A DNA stretch of 64,000 bases, from assembly GCF_000153165.2 (NCBI RefSeq), contig NC_014472.1, positions 1,485,501 through 1,549,500 of the forward strand. Direction: 5' to 3'. Every line of letters starts with the position of its first letter. Positions within the stretch are counted from its first letter, which is position 1. Under the pieces are notes generated by a model. It did no database searches and was not told the DNA's origin. It worked only from the letters and a program-made list of their open reading frames with translations. Positions 17,127-25,217 of this stretch are shown piece after piece. Source of the stretch: Maribacter sp. HTCC2170. Its GTDB lineage: Bacteria > Bacteroidota > Bacteroidia > Flavobacteriales > Flavobacteriaceae. The translations under genes and the position numbers were made by a program.

Positions 17127-19487
17127 TTAGAAGTCCAAATCATCTAAATCATCTGTTTCTTTTGGTGCATTGGGGTCTTCCACTGGTTTTGAACAATCCA
17201 AATTAATTGACATATTCTCAGGTTCAATGAATTCGCCATCAGAGACTCCCAATTCTTCATTTGCGTAATTTTTCTTCATGTACAGTCCCCAAATAGGCAA
17301 TGCCATAGAAGCCCCTTGACCATATCTAAGGGATTTAAAGTGTATAGATCGATTATCACCACCAACCCATACTCCGGTTACCAAATTGGGTACCATTCCC
17401 ATAAACCAACCATCACTTTGATTTTGTGTTGTTCCTGTTTTTCCGGCAATTGGGTTTTTGAACTCATAAGGGTATCCAGTTATAATCTCTTTGAACTCTG
17501 GTCTAGATTTAATTTTATCGTAACCTGTAGTTCGCAAATGAATTCCTGAACCTCCCTGTGTAACCCCTTCCATAAGGTTCACCATTGCATAAGATACTTC
17601 CTTGCTTAATACGTCCTTGGTTACAGGAACATATTCATACAATACTGTCCCGTTTTTATCTTCAATACGGGTAACCATAACCGGTTTCACGAAAACGCCC
17701 TGATTGGCAAAAGCACCATAAGCACCAACCATTTCATAAACATTCATATCTTCCGTTCCCAAAGCAATTGAAGGCACTTCTAAAATATCTCTATTAATTC
17801 CAAGGTTTTTTACAATGGATACAACAGATTTTGGACCAACCATATCTATTAGTTGGGCAGTTATTGAGTTTTTTGAATTGGCCAATCCTCTTTTCAAGGA
17901 ATACATTTCACCAGAAAACCTTCCGCTTGAGTTGTCGGGACACCAAGCTTCCATATTTCCGTGTTTATGTGCCTCTATACAATACTCCAAGTCTGGCAGT
18001 TCGTAACAAGGTGATAATCTCAACTGATCGATAGCAGCCGCATAAACGAAAGGTTTAAAGGTTGAGCCCGCTTGGCGTTTACCTTGGTACACATTATCAT
18101 ATTGAAAATGCCTGTAATCAACGCCTCCGACCCAAGCTTTTACATGTCCGGTTTGTGGTTCCATGGACATCATTGCCGTTCTTAAGTGCGTTTTATAATA
18201 CCTGATTGAATCTATCGGAGTCATGATAGTATCTTTTTCATGACCTTCACTCTTCCAATCAAAGACAGCCATTTCAGTCTTTTTTGTAAAAGAACTGCGA
18301 ATATCCTTTTCTGATTTGCCTTGTTTTTTCATTTGTCGCCAACGATCAGAAGTTTTTATGGCCTGTTCCATAATTCGGTCTATCTCCTCTTTTTCCAGAT
18401 TTAGGAAAGGAGCAGTTCTGTTCCGCTCAGGTGTATTCTGATGAAAAAACTCAGCTTGTAACTTTTTCATATGTTCCTGAACTGCCTCTTCAGCATTCAA
18501 TTGCATACGGGAATCTATAGTAGTGTAAATTTTTAATCCATCTAAATAAAGACTCCATTTATCACGTTCACCTTCAACCGCAGGCTTTGGGTTCTTTGCT
18601 ATCCACTTGTTCATAAAGCCTTGAAGGTACATTCTAAAATAGGTGGCAAGGCCTACACTATGGGACTGTGGATGGTAATTTAAATCCAATTCCAGAGCTT
18701 GTAAAGAGTCTTTTTCTGCTTCAGTTATATATTCATATCTACCTAATTGACGTAAAACGAGGTTTCTTTTATTCTGTGTTCTCTCAGGGCGGCGTAATGG
18801 GTTGTACAAAGAGGAATTCTGTAACATGCCTACTAGCATTGCAGATTCTTCCATTTTCAAATGTTTTGGCTCTTTACCAAAGTAGATTCTTGATGCAGAT
18901 TGAATTCCATCTGCATTATTGCCGAAATCATAAATGTTCAGATACATCGTTATAATTTCTTCTTTGGTATACCTTCGTTCTAGTTGTGTGGAGATTACGT
19001 ATTCTTTCGCTTTTTGTTTTATTCGTTCAATAGGGTTTCTTGATTTAGCACCAACATAAATTTGTCCTGCAAGCTGCTGTGTGATGGTACTTCCACCACC
19101 GCGACTACCTAAGTAGAAGAGTGCTCGCAATGTTCCAAACCAATCAATACCAGAATGGTTATAAAATCGAATATCTTCACTAGCGACAAGAACATCTATT
19201 AAGTTTTGTGGAAGGTCTTCATAACTCACATCTGTACGATTATCATCAAGATAAAACTTACCAAGAACTTCATCGTCGGATGATATGATTTGGGATGCCA
19301 AATTGGTCTGTGGGTTTTCTAGAGCTTCATATGTCGGTAGTGGTCCAAGCCATCCCCAAGAAGCCGATAAAAATAACAATGCAACGGATAGCACTCCAGT
19401 GGCAAAAAGAATCCAAAACCATTTAATAAAACTAATAAAACTGTTTTTTGATGTTTTTCTTTTGGTCTTTGCCATACGTTTACTCAT
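17127..19487 (-). CDS. Bifunctional penicillin-binding protein 1A (glycosyltransferase/transpeptidase)
   Basis: A 786-residue class A PBP, which polymerises and cross-links peptidoglycan in the periplasm. A lysine-rich cytoplasmic N-terminus is followed by one membrane helix (about 22-42). The GT51 domain carries the catalytic E104 in SEDIRFYNHSGID and the second motif GGSTITQQLA (131-140). The transpeptidase domain has S475-TFK478, S538-KN540 and K683-TG685. Its C-terminus is acidic (ETDDLDDLDF). Its start overlaps the end of gldH by eight bases, so the two genes are translationally coupled. Confidence 0.95.
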   Translation of the reverse strand: MSKRMAKTKRKTSKNSFISFIKWFWILFATGVLSVALLFLSASWGWLGPLPTYEALENPQTNLASQIISSDDEVLGKFYLDDNRTDVSYEDLPQNLIDVLVASEDIRFYNHSGIDWFGTLRALFYLGSRGGGSTITQQLAGQIYVGAKSRNPIERIKQKAKEYVISTQLERRYTKEEIITMYLNIYDFGNNADGIQSASRIYFGKEPKHLKMEESAMLVGMLQNSSLYNPLRRPERTQNKRNLVLRQLGRYEYITEAEKDSLQALELDLNYHPQSHSVGLATYFRMYLQGFMNKWIAKNPKPAVEGERDKWSLYLDGLKIYTTIDSRMQLNAEEAVQEHMKKLQAEFFHQNTPERNRTAPFLNLEKEEIDRIMEQAIKTSDRWRQMKKQGKSEKDIRSSFTKKTEMAVFDWKSEGHEKDTIMTPIDSIRYYKTHLRTAMMSMEPQTGHVKAWVGGVDYRHFQYDNVYQGKRQAGSTFKPFVYAAAIDQLRLSPCYELPDLEYCIEAHKHGNMEAWCPDNSSGRFSGEMYSLKRGLANSKNSITAQLIDMVGPKSVVSIVKNLGINRDILEVPSIALGTEDMNVYEMVGAYGAFANQGVFVKPVMVTRIEDKNGTVLYEYVPVTKDVLSKEVSYAMVNLMEGVTQGGSGIHLRTTGYDKIKSRPEFKEIITGYPYEFKNPIAGKTGTTQNQSDGWFMGMVPNLVTGVWVGGDNRSIHFKSLRYGQGASMALPIWGLYMKKNYANEELGVSDGEFIEPENMSINLDCSKPVEDPNAPKETDDLDDLDF

Positions 19488-19965
19488 TACTTTTTACAAT
19501 TTCATACCCGACATCTGTAATGCCTTCGAGGTTAATAATCCCATCTAAATTGCCGTTTTTACGCATGGCATGGGACAACCGTAATGTATATACGCCTGAA
19601 GAGGAAAAAACGATGTTTTCTTTATACCATAGTTTATTTTCTTTAGTATTTGCATACCCTTTACCTAACCATGTGCCGTCCGGTTTGGCCATTATAAACT
19701 CCAAAGTATCAGTGACAGTGTCACCATTTGGTTTATCAAGTTCCGCTATTAAAAATAGATTGCTGTACAGAAAAGTATTATCGTTGCGCACATTGATATA
19801 CACATGATGATTTTGAACGGTGTCCATCTCAGAAAAAGTGAATTCCACAATATTATCTTTGTTCCAAGCACCATTATTTGTTGCCTTAAAGCCTGTTTTC
19901 ACCAGAGAATCATCACAGGAAACCATTAAGGCAATAAACACAAATGATAAAAGTACCCTATGCAT
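19480..19965 (-). CDS. gldH: Gliding motility lipoprotein GldH
   Basis: A 161-residue lipoprotein from the ATG at 19965, chosen because it gives a signal peptide and lipobox (LMVSC, lipidated C17). The longer ORF upstream runs through the ricT gene. GldH is one of the lipoproteins needed for gliding motility in Flavobacterium. The FKATNNGAWNKDNIVEFTF stretch and the TFLYSNLFLIAEL segment are familiar from this family. It overlaps ricT by eight bases at its start and the PBP gene by eight at its end, forming a tight operon. Function in the machinery is not resolved in the literature I recall. Confidence 0.88.
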   Translation of the reverse strand: MHRVLLSFVFIALMVSCDDSLVKTGFKATNNGAWNKDNIVEFTFSEMDTVQNHHVYINVRNDNTFLYSNLFLIAELDKPNGDTVTDTLEFIMAKPDGTWLGKGYANTKENKLWYKENIVFSSSGVYTLRLSHAMRKNGNLDGIINLEGITDVGYEIVKSNE

Positions 19966-21124
19966 TTTTTTGTCGTCTTTTTCTATTATCGTTTCTTCTC
20001 CTTTTGCTTTTGTTTCGGTTATTTCGGCGTTTTGGCTTGTCAAAACGGGTTAGACTGTCTTGACCCACAACATTCTCGAAAACTACCTTTTCTTCAATAA
20101 TATTGTCAGCAGCATATTCCTCTAAGCTTGCAACTTTTTCTTTCTTTTTGTTTTTTGCAACAATTTCAATTACTTGATCCTTTGAAAGTATGTGCCAGTT
20201 GGCAGGTTCATCTTTATAAGAAAACCACAATGTGGCCTTAAAAATGTCGGACTTTTGACAGAACGCCATTCCCTTTTCAGTAAATAGTTTGGTGTCCTGA
20301 GGCGGAAAATCTTTCAAGGCTTCCAAATACAAATCGAGTTCATAATTAAGGCAGCATTTTAATTTACCGCATTGTCCCGCAAGTTTTTGGGGGTTTAGAG
20401 AAAGCTGTTGGTAACGCGCTGCCGAAGTACTCACTGACCTAAAATCAGTCAACCACGTAGAACAACACAATTCTCTACCGCAAGAGCCAATACCCCCTAA
20501 GCGTTGGGCCTCTTGACGGTAACCAATCTGGCGCATTTCGATACGAATTCCAAAGGCTTTGGCCATATCTTTTATCAATTGTCGAAAATCGACCCGTTCT
20601 TCCGCTGTATAATAAAAAGTTGCTTTCGACCCATCACCTTGAAACTCAACATCAGAGATTTTCATCTGCAATTTTAGAATTATGGCAATTTCCCGGGAAC
20701 GTTTCTTTATTTCTTCTTCTCTATCCCTTGACTTTTGCCAAATGTCGATGTCTTTTTGGGTAGCTTTTCGATATAATTTTGCAATCTCCTCAGAGTCGGA
20801 TTTCACCTTTTTCTTTTTCATTTGCACTTTAACAAGTTCCCCTGTTAATGTAACCATGCCAATATCATGACCTGATTGTGCTTGGGTGGCGACTATGTCA
20901 CCAATTGAAAGTGATAGGTTTTCTGTATTCCTGAAGAACTCTTTTCTGCTATTTTTAAATCGGACCTCAACAACGTCAAACGGTTTTGCACCACTTGGAA
21001 GTGACATGTTGGAAAGCCAATCAAATACCGTTAATTTATTACAGCCGTCTGTGCCACAAGTACCATTGTTCTTGCACCCTTTTGGCTGTCCATCCTTACC
21101 GGTTGAACAACTGTTACAACCCAT
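19958..21124 (-). CDS. ricT: PSP1/RicT-family regulatory iron-sulfur protein
   Basis: A PSP1-domain protein of 388 residues from the ATG at 21124; the frame extends 14 codons further, but the shorter start gives the Cys-rich N-terminus MGCNSCSTGKDG. Clusters of cysteines are seen at the N-terminus (C3, C6, C17, C23, C28), then in the PSP1 core as SCGRELCCSTWL and GQCGKLKCCLNYE. B. subtilis RicT (YaaT) works with RicA and RicF in a complex with Fe-S clusters that controls RNase Y activity, competence and biofilm. The C-terminal tail is strongly basic (KPKRRNNRNKSKRRR) and not part of the core domain, possibly RNA-binding. RicA and RicF partners are not in the window. Confidence 0.82.
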   Translation of the reverse strand: MGCNSCSTGKDGQPKGCKNNGTCGTDGCNKLTVFDWLSNMSLPSGAKPFDVVEVRFKNSRKEFFRNTENLSLSIGDIVATQAQSGHDIGMVTLTGELVKVQMKKKKVKSDSEEIAKLYRKATQKDIDIWQKSRDREEEIKKRSREIAIILKLQMKISDVEFQGDGSKATFYYTAEERVDFRQLIKDMAKAFGIRIEMRQIGYRQEAQRLGGIGSCGRELCCSTWLTDFRSVSTSAARYQQLSLNPQKLAGQCGKLKCCLNYELDLYLEALKDFPPQDTKLFTEKGMAFCQKSDIFKATLWFSYKDEPANWHILSKDQVIEIVAKNKKKEKVASLEEYAADNIIEEKVVFENVVGQDSLTRFDKPKRRNNRNKSKRRRNDNRKRRQKNA

Positions 21125-21262
21125 ATTTTGTATCTTGATTTGGGAAAAACCAAAAATTTTCCCCAAAAAAGGTTCATATTAATCTTAAATGTAAAGATAG
21201 TATAATTTGTTGCAGATATAAAGCATGCTCTTGCAATTGAAAAAATACCCTGTCTACAGTTC

Positions 21263-22294
21263 TTATTTTTTAAACTTCAAAACCTCGGAACGTCCTTTTT
21301 TGAAGATTTTATTACTCGCAGTTTTCCCTTTTCGCAACCTTTTTTGCTCCTCAAAGGGCAATGCTGAAACATTCTTACATTCCTGAGAGCAACAATCACT
21401 CATTTTTTTTGCGCATTCCTCACATTGGATAAATAACAGGTGGCATGCCTCATTGGCACAGTTTACATGAGTATCGCAAGCCTTACCACATTGATGGCAT
21501 TGAGCTATGATATCTTCTGAAATACGCTCACCTCTTCTATGGTCAAAGACAAAATTCTTTCCAATAAACTTGTTTTCTAGATTTTGGTCATTGGCCTGTC
21601 TTGCGTATTCAATAATACCCCCTTCCAACTGATAGACATTTTTGAAACCTTTGTGCTTATAGTATGCGCTTGCCTTTTCACAACGAATACCTCCTGTGCA
21701 GTACATGACCAGTTTCTTGTTCTCTTTGAAGTCTTCAAGGTCTTTCTCTATTATATCCAACGAATCACGAAAAGTATCAACGTCAGGTGTAATGGCATTT
21801 TTAAAATGGCCTATTTCACTTTCATAATGATTACGCATATCAACTAAAACCGTATTGGAATCTTCAATAAGTTCATTGAATTTAACGGCGTTTACATGGA
21901 TCCCTATATTGGTAACATCAAAAGTCTCGTCATTAAGACCATCTGCCAAAATCTTCTTCCTGACCTTTACCTTTAACTTTAAGAAAGATTTGTTGTCCTG
22001 CTCTATGGCTATGTTCAATCGTACATCTTTCAAAAAAGATATGCTGTCCAAATGATTTTTAAAGGAATCAAAGTTTTCAGCTGGAACCGATAATTGGGCA
22101 TTTATGCCCTCATTCGCAACATAAATCCGTCCCAAAACATCAATTTCATTCCAATTGATGAATAAATGATTTCTAAAAATAGAAAGGTTCCCTATGTGTG
22201 CATATTGGTAAAAGGAAATTGTTAAACGTTCTTGTCCCGCTTGTTCAATAAGAGATTCCCTTTCCTTTGCACTTAATGTATTGTACAGTTGCAT
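21263..22294 (-). CDS. trhO: tRNA uridine-34 hydroxylase, rhodanese family (TrhO/YceA)
   Basis: 343 residues from the ATG at 22294. It has an N-terminal ferredoxin-like/acylphosphatase-like domain (about 20-120), a rhodanese domain with active-site C199 in MYCTGGIRC (residues 197-205), and a Cys-rich C-terminal tail with CHQCGKAC, CANEAC and CEEC repeats that probably binds zinc. TrhO uses O2 to convert U34 of certain tRNAs to 5-hydroxyuridine. It is the downstream member of a same-strand run with a ferredoxin and TrhP, about 55 bp after the ferredoxin gene. An ordinary sulfurtransferase function is possible but the overall architecture is the TrhO one. Confidence 0.9.
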   Translation of the reverse strand: MQLYNTLSAKERESLIEQAGQERLTISFYQYAHIGNLSIFRNHLFINWNEIDVLGRIYVANEGINAQLSVPAENFDSFKNHLDSISFLKDVRLNIAIEQDNKSFLKLKVKVRKKILADGLNDETFDVTNIGIHVNAVKFNELIEDSNTVLVDMRNHYESEIGHFKNAITPDVDTFRDSLDIIEKDLEDFKENKKLVMYCTGGIRCEKASAYYKHKGFKNVYQLEGGIIEYARQANDQNLENKFIGKNFVFDHRRGERISEDIIAQCHQCGKACDTHVNCANEACHLLFIQCEECAKKMSDCCSQECKNVSALPFEEQKRLRKGKTASNKIFKKGRSEVLKFKK

Positions 22295-22349
22295 GCTATA
22301 CCAATCGTTTAAGTTAAAGAATAGTTTAAACGACAAAGATAGAATAATC

Positions 22350-22580
22350 CTAAGTTATTTTGGTGGTTATAATCTTCACCGGGCAAGCCAACTGTGCCTG
22401 TAAACAAGGTTCGTAAGTACTATGGTCATGGGATTTGATGGTAAAAAACCCTTTCTTTTCTGTAGATTTCAACAAAACGGTCTTTCCATCTTTTTTGGAC
22501 ATTTGAAATTGTTCGGGTGCCAGTTCAACACAATAATTGCACCCAATACATTTTTTACGTTGTAGCGTAACAACTACCAT
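22350..22580 (-). CDS. Small [4Fe-4S] ferredoxin between trhO and trhP
   Basis: 76 residues. C11, C14 and C17 (CIGCNYC) with C66 in ACPVK form the four ligands of a single [4Fe-4S] cluster; C59 is an extra cysteine. The region between is a polar loop of about 45 residues. The gene starts exactly at the end of the trhP gene (22580), with a one-base overlap, so its synthesis is coupled to trhP. A single-cluster ferredoxin is a plausible electron carrier for TrhP or for TrhO, but the redox chemistry of neither is proven to need one. Confidence 0.82.
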   Translation of the reverse strand: MVVVTLQRKKCIGCNYCVELAPEQFQMSKKDGKTVLLKSTEKKGFFTIKSHDHSTYEPCLQAQLACPVKIITTKIT

Positions 22581-23821
22581 TATTCTTGGACTATTTTATA
22601 CAATTTATCAGAAGGGCGGACCTTAAACCCTGTAGGGATTGTACAATTATGGCCTTTTTTTACTTGGTCAGCTATGACATCGTCAACCATCATTTCTTTT
22701 AGTTCCAATTCTTCAACCCCAGTTGTAGGACCCGTGATCAGCAACTTGTCCCCGACTTTTATATCAAAAGCTTCAATTTTGAATTCAGCGATACCAGGCC
22801 TTGGATAATAATGAATTCCCTTACCAACATACAATTTCTTTTGAGTGGCATGAGAACCAGAACCGTCACTCCATTCTCCAAGTTTTTGACCCAAGTAATA
22901 ACCGCTCCAAAACCCCCTATTATACACTTTTTCAAGCTCAACCATCCAATCTTCTATCTTTTCTTTGGAGTAGGTATTATTTTCATGGGAATCTATAGCA
23001 TCTCTATATGTTTTTATAACGGTAGCTACATATTCAGGTGCCCTACCTCTACCTTCAATCTTCAAAACTTTTACACCTGCTTCAATTATTTGATCCAAAA
23101 AATCAATTGTACACAGGTCTTTCGGTGACATCATATATTCATTGTCCAACTCAATCTCAAAACCACTTTCCTGATCAATAACTGTGTATTTCTTGCGGCA
23201 GTTCTGCTTGCAAGCACCTCTATTTGCCGATGAATTATGGGAGTGTAGACTTAGGTAACATTTCCCAGACACAGCCATACACAAAGCCCCGTGTCCAAAA
23301 ATCTCAACTTCAATTAGATTGCCAGAAGGCCCTTTTACCTCTTCCTTTTGTATTTGATTACAAATGTTTTTGATCTGTCGTAAACTTAACTCGCGACTCA
23401 AAACCACTGTATCTGCAAATAAGGAGTAAAACTTTACAGCTTCAATATTGGTGATGTTGATTTGGGTTGAAATATGGACTTCCAAATTTATTTGCCTAGC
23501 ATAGGCAATCACAGCTTGATCCATGGCTATCACCGCCGTAATATTGGCTTTTTTGGCCAAATTCAGAATGGTTTTTATTACTGAAAGGTCATGGTCATAT
23601 ATAATCGTGTTAAGGGTAAGATAGGTCCTAATATTCTTTTTAATACATCGGCTTGCAATCTCGGGCAAATCCTCCAAAGTAAAATTAATACTTGCCCTGG
23701 CGCGCATATTCAGCTGTTCAACACCAAAGTAAACCGAATCAGCACCATTTTCAATAGCTGCTTGCAAGGATTCAAAATTCCCGGCCGGCGCCATCAATTC
23801 AATTTTTCCACTTGTTGTCAT
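22580..23821 (-). CDS. trhP: U32-family tRNA hydroxylase (TrhP/YegQ-like)
   Basis: 413 residues from the ATG at 23821, which gives the conserved start leading into ELMAPAGNFESLQAA. Length and lack of a DUF3656 extension fit TrhP (YegQ) rather than RlhA. Conserved cysteines C181, C188, C204 and C208 (in GALCMAVSGKCYLS and GACKQNC) supply the expected Fe-S ligands. TrhP is a prephenate-dependent tRNA U34 5-hydroxylase in E. coli. It is the first gene of a three-gene block with the ferredoxin and TrhO. Other U32 relatives act on ubiquinone or rRNA, so the RNA target should be regarded as likely, not proven. Confidence 0.88.
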   Translation of the reverse strand: MTTSGKIELMAPAGNFESLQAAIENGADSVYFGVEQLNMRARASINFTLEDLPEIASRCIKKNIRTYLTLNTIIYDHDLSVIKTILNLAKKANITAVIAMDQAVIAYARQINLEVHISTQINITNIEAVKFYSLFADTVVLSRELSLRQIKNICNQIQKEEVKGPSGNLIEVEIFGHGALCMAVSGKCYLSLHSHNSSANRGACKQNCRKKYTVIDQESGFEIELDNEYMMSPKDLCTIDFLDQIIEAGVKVLKIEGRGRAPEYVATVIKTYRDAIDSHENNTYSKEKIEDWMVELEKVYNRGFWSGYYLGQKLGEWSDGSGSHATQKKLYVGKGIHYYPRPGIAEFKIEAFDIKVGDKLLITGPTTGVEELELKEMMVDDVIADQVKKGHNCTIPTGFKVRPSDKLYKIVQE

Positions 23822-23929
23822 ACCTGCAAGGTCTTTGATTTTGGACCGCAAAGATACGTTTTATAAGAAAATTAATAAGTAAGCCCAATATCTTGTGTAT
23901 TGTAACTCTAAAATCTGAATGTATTGCAT

Positions 23930-23959
23930 AAAAAAGAGTCTTGAAATTTCAAGACTCTT
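23930..23959 (-). terminator. 26-bp perfect palindrome with T-run, minus-strand terminator
   Basis: The palindrome spans 23934-23959 (arm AAGAGTCTTGAAA) and is followed on the minus strand by six T residues. It is oriented to end a transcript coming from the recA side, but it lies upstream of trhP, not downstream of any annotated gene. A short RNA made in this interval is the simplest explanation. Confidence 0.85.
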
Positions 23960-24065
23960 AATTGGCCACTCCATTTTTTCTTTTTCATAGCATTCTTAAA
24001 ATGCAAAAGGGAAATGACCACCGTTGACCATTGTCCTGAGACAAATGGTTTATATATAGAGTTAG

Positions 24066-24145
24066 TATATACAGTTTTTAGTAAGATGTACTTTTTGCAA
24101 AAAGGTTGCGTCATAAAAAAATACAGCACCTAAAAACTGTGTATA
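24066..24145. repeat. Long inverted repeat with nested palindrome, recA-trhP intergenic region
   Basis: Arms TATATACAGTTTTTAG (24066-24081) and CTAAAAACTGTGTATA (24130-24145) are complementary at 15 of 16 positions, with 48 bp between them. Inside lies the perfect 14-bp palindrome CTTTTTGCAAAAAG (24091-24104). The whole 391-bp space between trhP and recA holds this element, the 26-bp palindromic terminator at 23934-23959 and no convincing gene. The element could be an operator for divergent transcription or part of a structured RNA. Confidence 0.7.
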
Positions 24146-24212
24146 AAATAATTTGGGGCAATGGTTTTATGAAAAAAGAATTGGTAAATTAGCGTTCCTA
24201 ATTTTATACGAA

Positions 24213-25217
24213 ATGAGTTCTGAAAAAGAAGCAAAATTAAAAGCATTAAAACTAACCCTTGATAAATTGGACAAGACTTACGGCAAAGGTGCCGTAATGA
24301 AAATGGGAGATAGTGTTGTAGAAGATGTTGAAGTAATCCCATCTGGTTCTCTAGGTCTTGATATTGCCCTCGGTGTTGGTGGTTACCCACGCGGCAGGGT
24401 TATTGAAATTTATGGTCCCGAATCTTCTGGTAAGACGACCTTAACACTACATGCGATTGCAGAAGCACAAAAAAATGGTGGAATAGCAGCTTTTATTGAT
24501 GCGGAACATGCTTTTGATCGTTTTTATGCCGAAAAATTAGGTATTGATATTGACAACCTCATTATTTCGCAACCAGACAATGGTGAACAGGCCTTGGAAA
24601 TTGCTGATAATTTAATCCGTTCAGGAGCAATTGATATCGTAGTGGTCGATTCTGTTGCCGCCTTAACTCCAAAGAGCGAGATTGAAGGTGAAATGGGAGA
24701 CTCAAAAATGGGGCTGCATGCAAGACTAATGTCACAAGCCTTAAGAAAATTGACAGGGTCAATCAGTAAAACCCATTGCACAGTTATATTTATCAACCAG
24801 TTAAGAGAAAAAATTGGGGTTATGTTCGGTAATCCAGAAACTACAACAGGTGGTAATGCTCTTAAATTCTATGCCTCCGTTCGTTTGGATATTCGTCGTT
24901 CAACACAAATCAAAGATACAGACGGTGCCGTGCGAGGAAACAAAACAAGAGTAAAAGTTGTTAAAAACAAAGTTGCCCCGCCCTTTAGATTAGCCGAGTT
25001 CGATATCATGTATGGTGAAGGTATTTCTAAGGTTGGTGAAATCATAGATTTAGGTGTTGAATATGAAATCATAAAGAAAAGTGGTTCTTGGTTCAGTTAT
25101 GGTGATACTAAACTTGGTCAAGGTAGAGATGCTGTAAAAGCGTTACTAAATGATAATCCAGAATTATATGAAGAACTTGATGTAAAAATTCGTGAGGCCA
25201 TTACAACAGTAAAATAG
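24213..25217 (+). CDS. recA: Recombinase RecA
   Basis: The central homologous-recombination and SOS protein, 334 residues. The ATG at 24213 gives the standard N-terminus [19 protein letters not shown]; the frame continues upstream only through an unlikely TTG. Walker A is GPESSGKT at 68-75, and the [21 protein letters not shown] and [22 protein letters not shown] motifs are all present. The C-terminus is short (ending AITTVK) compared with acidic-tailed proteobacterial RecA. It has its own terminator and a structured upstream region shared with trhP. Confidence 0.98.

Follow-up and report, generated by a model that had tools for sequence, protein, structure and literature searches.

In Escherichia coli, 5-hydroxyuridine at position 34 of tRNA (ho5U34) arises by two routes: TrhP (YegQ), a U32-family protein, needs prephenate, and TrhO (YceA) takes its oxygen from O2 (PMC6599085). 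Bacillus subtilis has a two-gene U32 system for ho5U34, TrhP1/TrhP2 (YrrO/YrrN), in which TrhP1 bears the C-terminal motif (PMC6599085). Another pair of U32 proteins with [4Fe-4S] clusters, UbiU-UbiV, acts independently of O2, and prephenate has been reported as its oxygen donor (cited in PMC11574389). The way in which U32 enzymes hydroxylate without O2, and the role of their clusters, have been described as open questions (PMC11574389). Here we analysed a stretch of 64,000 nucleotides from Maribacter sp. HTCC2170 (NC_014472.1, positions 1,485,501 to 1,549,500; hereafter the window), in which genes for a U32-family protein, a small ferredoxin and TrhO lie next to one another on one strand. Among known systems, E. 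coli TrhP and B. subtilis TrhP1/TrhP2 come closest.

The window's U32 protein resembles E. coli TrhP in fold family, in its Glu and Cys residues, in the arrangement of a U32 domain followed by a C-terminal domain, and probably in making ho5U34 beside a TrhO route (PMC6599085). It differs in length (413 against 453 aa), is 30% identical and scores below the curated TrhP cut-off. In E. coli, about 1 Mb separates trhP from trhO, and the annotation of the 15 kb around trhP includes no ferredoxin. Compared by description, the B. subtilis system pairs two U32 proteins, where the window has one U32 protein and a ferredoxin; the Pfam model finds only one U32 protein in the window's genome (one contig of 3.87 Mb). 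UbiU-UbiV act on a different substrate, in ubiquinone hydroxylation, and the window's U32 protein reaches 174 bits on the curated UbiU model, whose cut-off is 440; the word ferredoxin has 0 occurrences in the text available from PMC10470549. TrhO of Flavobacterium and its kin departs from YceA in its tail, formed by either a C-terminal domain of U32 type or an entire U32 protein. No description of a U32-ferredoxin pairing was found in the literature searched for ferredoxin, some key U32 papers being outside reach, and the accessible part of PMC6599085 holds 0 mentions of it. The three genes of the window are as follows.

22580..23821, minus strand: gene of the U32-family protein, 413 aa (ATG at 23821, stop ending at 22580; the listed open reading frame begins at an upstream TTG, 23851)
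22350..22580, minus strand: ferredoxin gene, 76 aa, with one [4Fe-4S] site (C11, C14, C17, C66)
21263..22294, minus strand: trhO, 343 aa from the ATG at 22294 (MQLYNTL) that is common to relatives (the listed open reading frame, 21263-22336, begins at a TTG)

The initial annotation had described three same-strand genes with a 76-residue ferredoxin overlapping the U32 gene by one base, and this was confirmed on the minus strand: the U32 stop and the ferredoxin start overlap in taATG. The gap from the ferredoxin gene to trhO is 55 nt, counted from the conserved trhO ATG at 22294.

We surveyed 249 Flavobacteriaceae genomes from 202 genera, with a threshold of E <= 1e-80 for U32 and TrhO and of 1e-6 for the ferredoxin. 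The ferredoxin was present in 84/85 U32-bearing genomes and in 0/164 of the others (Fisher P 1e-66). The two genes were same-strand neighbours in 77 of the 85 genomes, with gaps of up to 1,079 nt, and in seven genomes where they lie apart (G169, G247, G256, G270, G313, G317 and G357) both were still present. Starting from the ferredoxin, a U32 gene was found upstream on the same strand in 75 of 80 named loci (the best 80 of 209). Since the ferredoxin is absent where TrhO alone occurs, it appears to serve the U32 enzyme and not TrhO. Its near-constant presence where this U32 protein occurs, and its absence from the other family genomes, make the ferredoxin a candidate redox partner for O2-independent hydroxylation, and one open to deletion, purification and measurement. 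We consider it reasonably probable, from these sequence comparisons, that the U32 protein works with the ferredoxin as a dedicated two-component tRNA ho5U34 hydroxylase, independent of O2 and parallel to TrhO. The observed base of this proposal is the anatomy of the locus, the near-obligate U32-ferredoxin pairing, the complementarity with TrhO, the common C-terminal domain and a natural TrhO-U32 fusion.

The ferredoxin scores 45.2 bits on Pfam Fer4_13 (cut-off 24.5) and 39.6 on Fer4_15 (cut-off 22.4). Among 101 aligned rows C11, C14 and C17 are kept in 100, the remaining row being truncated, and C66 in all 101; S28, D31 and G32 are kept in at least 100, and the fifth Cys of the window's protein is not conserved. 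By these Pfam scores and its four Cys ligands the protein is assigned to the single-cluster [4Fe-4S] type. Two records stand out. In genome G092 (L021, L192), listed only at the level of the phylum, the U32 protein is 75% identical to the window's but the ferredoxin only 50-51%, at the start of an 11.8-kb contig, as might result from gene transfer or a stray contig. In a record titled Candidatus Rokubacteria (L230), the U32 protein and ferredoxin are 77% and 72% identical to those of the window, and this is probably a misplaced bin.

The distribution of TrhO complements that of the U32 protein. Both hydroxylases were found in 61 family genomes, TrhO only in 163, U32 only in 24 and neither in 1 (Fisher P 1e-11). 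TrhO was thus present in 163 of the 164 genomes that have no U32 protein, and U32 in 24 of the 25 that were TrhO-negative at E <= 1e-80 (20 listed as such and 5 deduced from their absence in the match table). The sole genome lacking both is G198 (completeness 94%, contamination 8%). The weakest TrhO match in the family genome table was 2.6e-130, looser matches falling outside that listing. When named ferredoxin-bearing genomes were searched at 1e-20, 11/23 were without TrhO, including three Capnocytophaga and three Lutibacter. The U32 tree (all trees were built with FastTree and carry local supports) requires at least 11 changes in the presence of TrhO, and supported branches force 4 of them. 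Judged by gene content, the two hydroxylases look interchangeable in the family, and in some Flavobacteriaceae two unrelated enzymes, probably with the same tRNA mark as product, are encoded next to each other. Across a sample of the phylum (148 genomes) the pattern was weaker than in the family, with both enzymes in 29 genomes, U32 only in 39, TrhO only in 56 and neither in 24. Six of 74 U32-matching genomes (G005, G021, G078, G084, G087 and G138), which had just RlhA-like, tail-domain or weaker partial matches, were left out of this count beforehand. All 20 ferredoxin genes of the phylum sample adjoin a U32 gene of at least 52% identity.

The TrhO protein itself provided further links. The window's TrhO scores 259 bits on the NCBIfam TrhO model, above the curated cut-off of 170, so the identity first given to it stands. 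Its Pfam domains run UPF0176_N, Rhodanese, Rhodanese_C, and the CXGGXR loop is present as CTGGIR; by family it is a plain TrhO, a predicted O2-dependent tRNA U34 hydroxylase. In 18 of 44 named TrhO-bearing loci, TrhO is extended in frame by a copy of the U32 C-terminal domain, giving open reading frames of 450-461 aa. The record titles assign these tailed proteins to Flavobacterium, Myroides, Kaistella and unassigned kin. The phylum sample contained 8 genomes with TrhO and such a copy, 5 of them without a window-type U32 protein. Loci with a tailed TrhO include L211, L212, L210 and L239. In a search of 299 Flavobacterium genomes, 4 of the 144 that bear U32 (G555, G574, G677 and G680, the last being F. 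franklandianum) encode TrhO and U32 as a one-frame fusion of 774-792 codons with both catalytic motifs intact, for example:

L277:2689-4998, plus strand: natural TrhO-U32 fusion, a single open reading frame (also in L373, L374 and L376)

The fusion proteins form one clade with support 92 in a 62-row FastTree tree, which indicates that the fusion arose once and has persisted through some divergence. Both the shared domain and the full fusion suggest a substrate in common, tying two unrelated enzymes to one likely target, and the idea of two routes to one tRNA mark becomes testable in a single natural protein.

The U32 protein matches Pfam Peptidase_U32 with 244 bits. Its cluster ligands, numbered from the ATG, are C181, C188, C204 and C208, and the resulting CX6CX15CX3C, the cluster motif of U32 oxidases (PMC11574389), is invariant together with E173 in 112/112 aligned Bacteroidota homologues. 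E162, C170 and C177, named as essential in TrhP in a study that mutated six residues (PMC6599085), align to E173, C181 and C188, invariant in the same 112 proteins. Its length is not of the RlhA type, judged by length and 30% identity (413 aa against 653 aa for E. coli RlhA), and other genomes hold separate open frames of 605-639 aa that are 34-38% identical to it. Pfam found no match to Peptidase_U32_C (PF16325) in the protein at E <= 10. The predicted fold of its C-terminal domain matches 4he5, a solved structure of the C-terminal domain from a U32 protein of Geobacillus, with a template-modelling (TM) score of 0.83 by target length and a root-mean-square deviation of 1.7 over 80 columns; the TrhO tail domain has the same match with a TM score of 0.86 by target length. 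The structure models were modest (mean predicted local distance difference test, pLDDT, 70.5 and 72.8), and the C-terminal domains alone were used (blocks 71-90 and 81-94). With the whole U32 model, Foldseek ranked TIM-barrel enzymes at the top by E-value, 4he5 10th and the U32 structure 5d88 13th; by sequence, no convincing solved homologue was found (one match, E 0.1). As modelled, the architecture is that of TrhP, a U32 domain plus a C-terminal domain. Because of the complementarity with TrhO in the family, the common C-terminal domain and the natural fusion, we conclude that the protein is probably a TrhP-type tRNA U34 hydroxylase; the name trhP, as initially assigned, is not secured by sequence alone. 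The U32 gene of one Flavobacterium genome (G579:C1:1595163-1596397) is probably interrupted, being split into two overlapping pieces (residues 1-206 and 202-412).

In the proposed mechanism, the U32-ferredoxin pair would convert tRNA position 34 to 5-hydroxyuridine, as TrhO does with O2, and would run beside TrhO or replace it. The U32 protein would hold its own Fe-S cluster, its C-terminal beta-barrel would probably help to bind tRNA, and the ferredoxin would carry electrons to or from the cluster. We infer the ho5U34 product and prephenate as oxygen source, as well as tRNA binding by the barrel, the role of the ferredoxin and the direction of its electrons. If prephenate (C10H10O6) gives up a hydroxyl and ends as phenylpyruvate (C9H8O3) and CO2, conversion of RH to ROH would free 2 electrons and 2 protons, so that an acceptor would be needed and the ferredoxin could be that acceptor. 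If prephenate is merely deoxygenated, the step would be redox-neutral and the ferredoxin would serve activation. The role of electron donor suggested by the initial annotation is therefore unproven, and should prephenate supply the oxygen, the ferredoxin is less likely to be a donor than an electron acceptor or an activator. A tentative extension, which we hold with distinctly less confidence than the two-component hydroxylase itself, is that in Flavobacteriaceae the ferredoxin draws electrons from the U32 cluster (RH + prephenate -> ROH + phenylpyruvate + CO2 + 2 e- + 2 H+), and that in some Flavobacterium a bifunctional TrhO-U32 protein may make the same mark with or without O2.

The order of the genes was examined in the 85 U32-bearing genomes, 30 of which were judged from about 1.5-3 kb of flank. 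The order trhO-U32-ferredoxin was found in 41 and the window's order, U32-ferredoxin-trhO, in 10; in 25 the pair had no adjoining trhO, in 1 trhO was convergent and in 8 U32 stood alone. Where both hydroxylases occur, they were same-strand neighbours in 51/61 genomes (two orders), convergent in 1 and apart in 9. The neighbourhood described in the initial annotation thus holds in most relatives that have both hydroxylases. The surrounding order recA / trhO / ricT-gldH-penicillin-binding protein is conserved (window 17127-25217), and recA-trhO-ricT was found in 36/41 trhO loci fetched for comparison, with or without the U32-ferredoxin pair. The pair lies inside the recA-ricT interval before trhO, after trhO or alone. 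A RecA-RicT-PBP1A tree of 96 loci requires 2 changes to account for the two orders, and at least 12 for the pair's presence in the interval. Linkage to trhO therefore appears to be partly inherited synteny, which does not explain the joint gain and loss of U32 and ferredoxin. The further features of the region are listed here.

23849..23856, minus strand: TATCTTTG, Bacteroidota-type -7 element upstream of the U32 gene, by consensus match
22334..22341, minus strand: TATCTTTG, candidate own -7 element of trhO, between the ferredoxin stop and the trhO start
19958..21166, minus strand: ricT (YaaT family), conserved downstream neighbour (NCBIfam RicT 257 bits, cut-off 70; synteny)
17127..20043, minus strand: gldH and a class A penicillin-binding protein gene, further conserved neighbours (GldH 101 bits, cut-off 78.7; synteny)
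24153..25217, plus strand: recA, divergent upstream neighbour closing the conserved interval (NCBIfam RecA 564 bits, cut-off 325; synteny)
23934..23959, minus strand: hairpin followed by a T run, terminator-like, between recA and the U32 gene, by consensus scan

The class A penicillin-binding protein scores 466 bits on the PBP1A family model, below its cut-off of 509. Terminator-like sites number 5 in the window against 5.5 expected in shuffles, and the hairpin alone is not evidence. Neither an Rfam match at gathering scores nor a tRNA was found in the window.

The -7 elements were scored with TAnnTTTG, which we take to be the Bacteroidota consensus. Such an element lies within 80 nt upstream of trhO in 39/41 loci with trhO first, 7/10 with U32 first and 36/38 with no adjoining U32; upstream of U32 the corresponding counts were 14/41 with trhO first, 10/10 with U32 first and 22/27 with no adjoining trhO. 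Upstream of the ferredoxin it was found in 1/75 loci, and shuffled sequences give it at about 2-7%. The reading of promoters uses this -7 half only: the full -33/-7 pattern was found at none of the three genes and 9 times in the window, with 5.5 expected. Because the ferredoxin has so rarely an element of its own, it is probably read with the U32 gene. The window's trhO probably has its own promoter, as its candidate element suggests. Of the single operon under common control proposed initially, the U32-ferredoxin part is thus retained as probable, and trhO, like U32 provided with a -7 element of its own, may be transcribed separately.

Several observations weigh against the proposed hydroxylase. 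On the curated NCBIfam TrhP model the U32 protein scores 191 bits with a cut-off of 534, where E. coli TrhP reaches 875 and E. coli RlhA 172; its identity is 30% to TrhP, 30% to RlhA and 34% to UbiU, and its structure model is poor near the Cys motif (pLDDT under 50). One U32-bearing family genome, G340, is without the ferredoxin, as is the locus of a close U32 homologue (54% identity) in G119. Beside distant U32 homologues (43-48% identity), a recognisable ferredoxin was found within 1.5 kb in 0/9 loci; two frames near them carry CxxCxxC by pattern, and neither is a recognisable ferredoxin. Not all U32 proteins of this kind can therefore depend on the ferredoxin. In five genomes (L193, L194, L195, L197 and L199) the unlinked ferredoxin gene has remained next to ricT. 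The absence of TrhO rests on E <= 1e-80, so that 24 genomes may hold a divergent TrhO, and the 24/148 phylum genomes with neither enzyme indicate that the mark is not universal. Finally, and counting against a prephenate route more generally, loss of chorismate synthesis in Pseudomonas aeruginosa raised ho5U, which was read as against a role for chorismate in making it (PMC12300143); that study itself describes the ho5U signal as unreliable, and TrhO could be the source of the P. aeruginosa ho5U.

The missing ferredoxin beside the distant homologues would also fit a ferredoxin that stands outside turnover and repairs or activates the O2-sensitive cluster of the U32 protein in bacteria meeting O2. 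That the ferredoxin follows one enzyme only agrees with such a role, and prephenate merely deoxygenated would need no net electrons. We nevertheless regard this as unlikely, given an ordinary member of its ferredoxin family with all four ligands conserved; sequence cannot separate the two roles. Another explanation is that the pair hydroxylates a different target (23S rRNA, a quinone or another tRNA site) and lies near trhO by inherited order. The model scores, which do not single out TrhP among U32 enzymes, and the position of trhO between recA and ricT regardless of the pair both leave room for it. Complementarity, common C-terminal domain and end-to-end fusion nonetheless tie U32 to the substrate of TrhO, and a U32_C-like domain is a feature of TrhP and TrhP1 (PMC6599085), matched in the window's protein by its predicted fold; we hold a different target to be quite improbable.

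A dedicated U32-ferredoxin hydroxylase also accounts better for the data than the shared electron donor of the initial annotation, in which the ferredoxin would supply both TrhP and TrhO. The three genes are indeed neighbours on one strand in most genomes that have both hydroxylases, but the 163 family genomes with TrhO and no such ferredoxin contradict this model, and trhO often has its own -7 element. Moreover, E. coli TrhO, as recombinant protein, formed ho5U34 by itself in a 2-mercaptoethanol buffer that contained no ferredoxin (PMC6599085). A shared donor is accordingly very improbable, and a ferredoxin fuelling both enzymes is the least likely picture of its electron transfer. There is slightly less to be said still for RicT as the real client, with the U32 link secondary. 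NCBIfam names the RicT family as an iron-sulfur complex subunit, and the five ferredoxin genes left beside ricT are in genomes whose U32 gene moved away. However, ricT adjoins trhO in 30 fetched loci from genomes without a ferredoxin match, and two further unlinked ferredoxin genes adjoin trpS instead (L196, L198). An Fe-S link between RicT and the ferredoxin is possible but not needed.

Later products of the pathway were also considered. Uridine 5-oxyacetic acid (cmo5U) is unlikely as the end product: CmoB was above cut-off in 0/100 family genomes, with weak methyltransferase matches in 92. The window's genome encodes a catechol-O-methyltransferase-type protein (PF01596, 179 bits; L342:1462-2103, plus strand), of a kind that is not specific, being above cut-off in 11/14 control genomes, and no curated model names this copy. 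By its family, this protein could methylate ho5U as TrmR does, which makes 5-methoxyuridine (mo5U) a possibility only.

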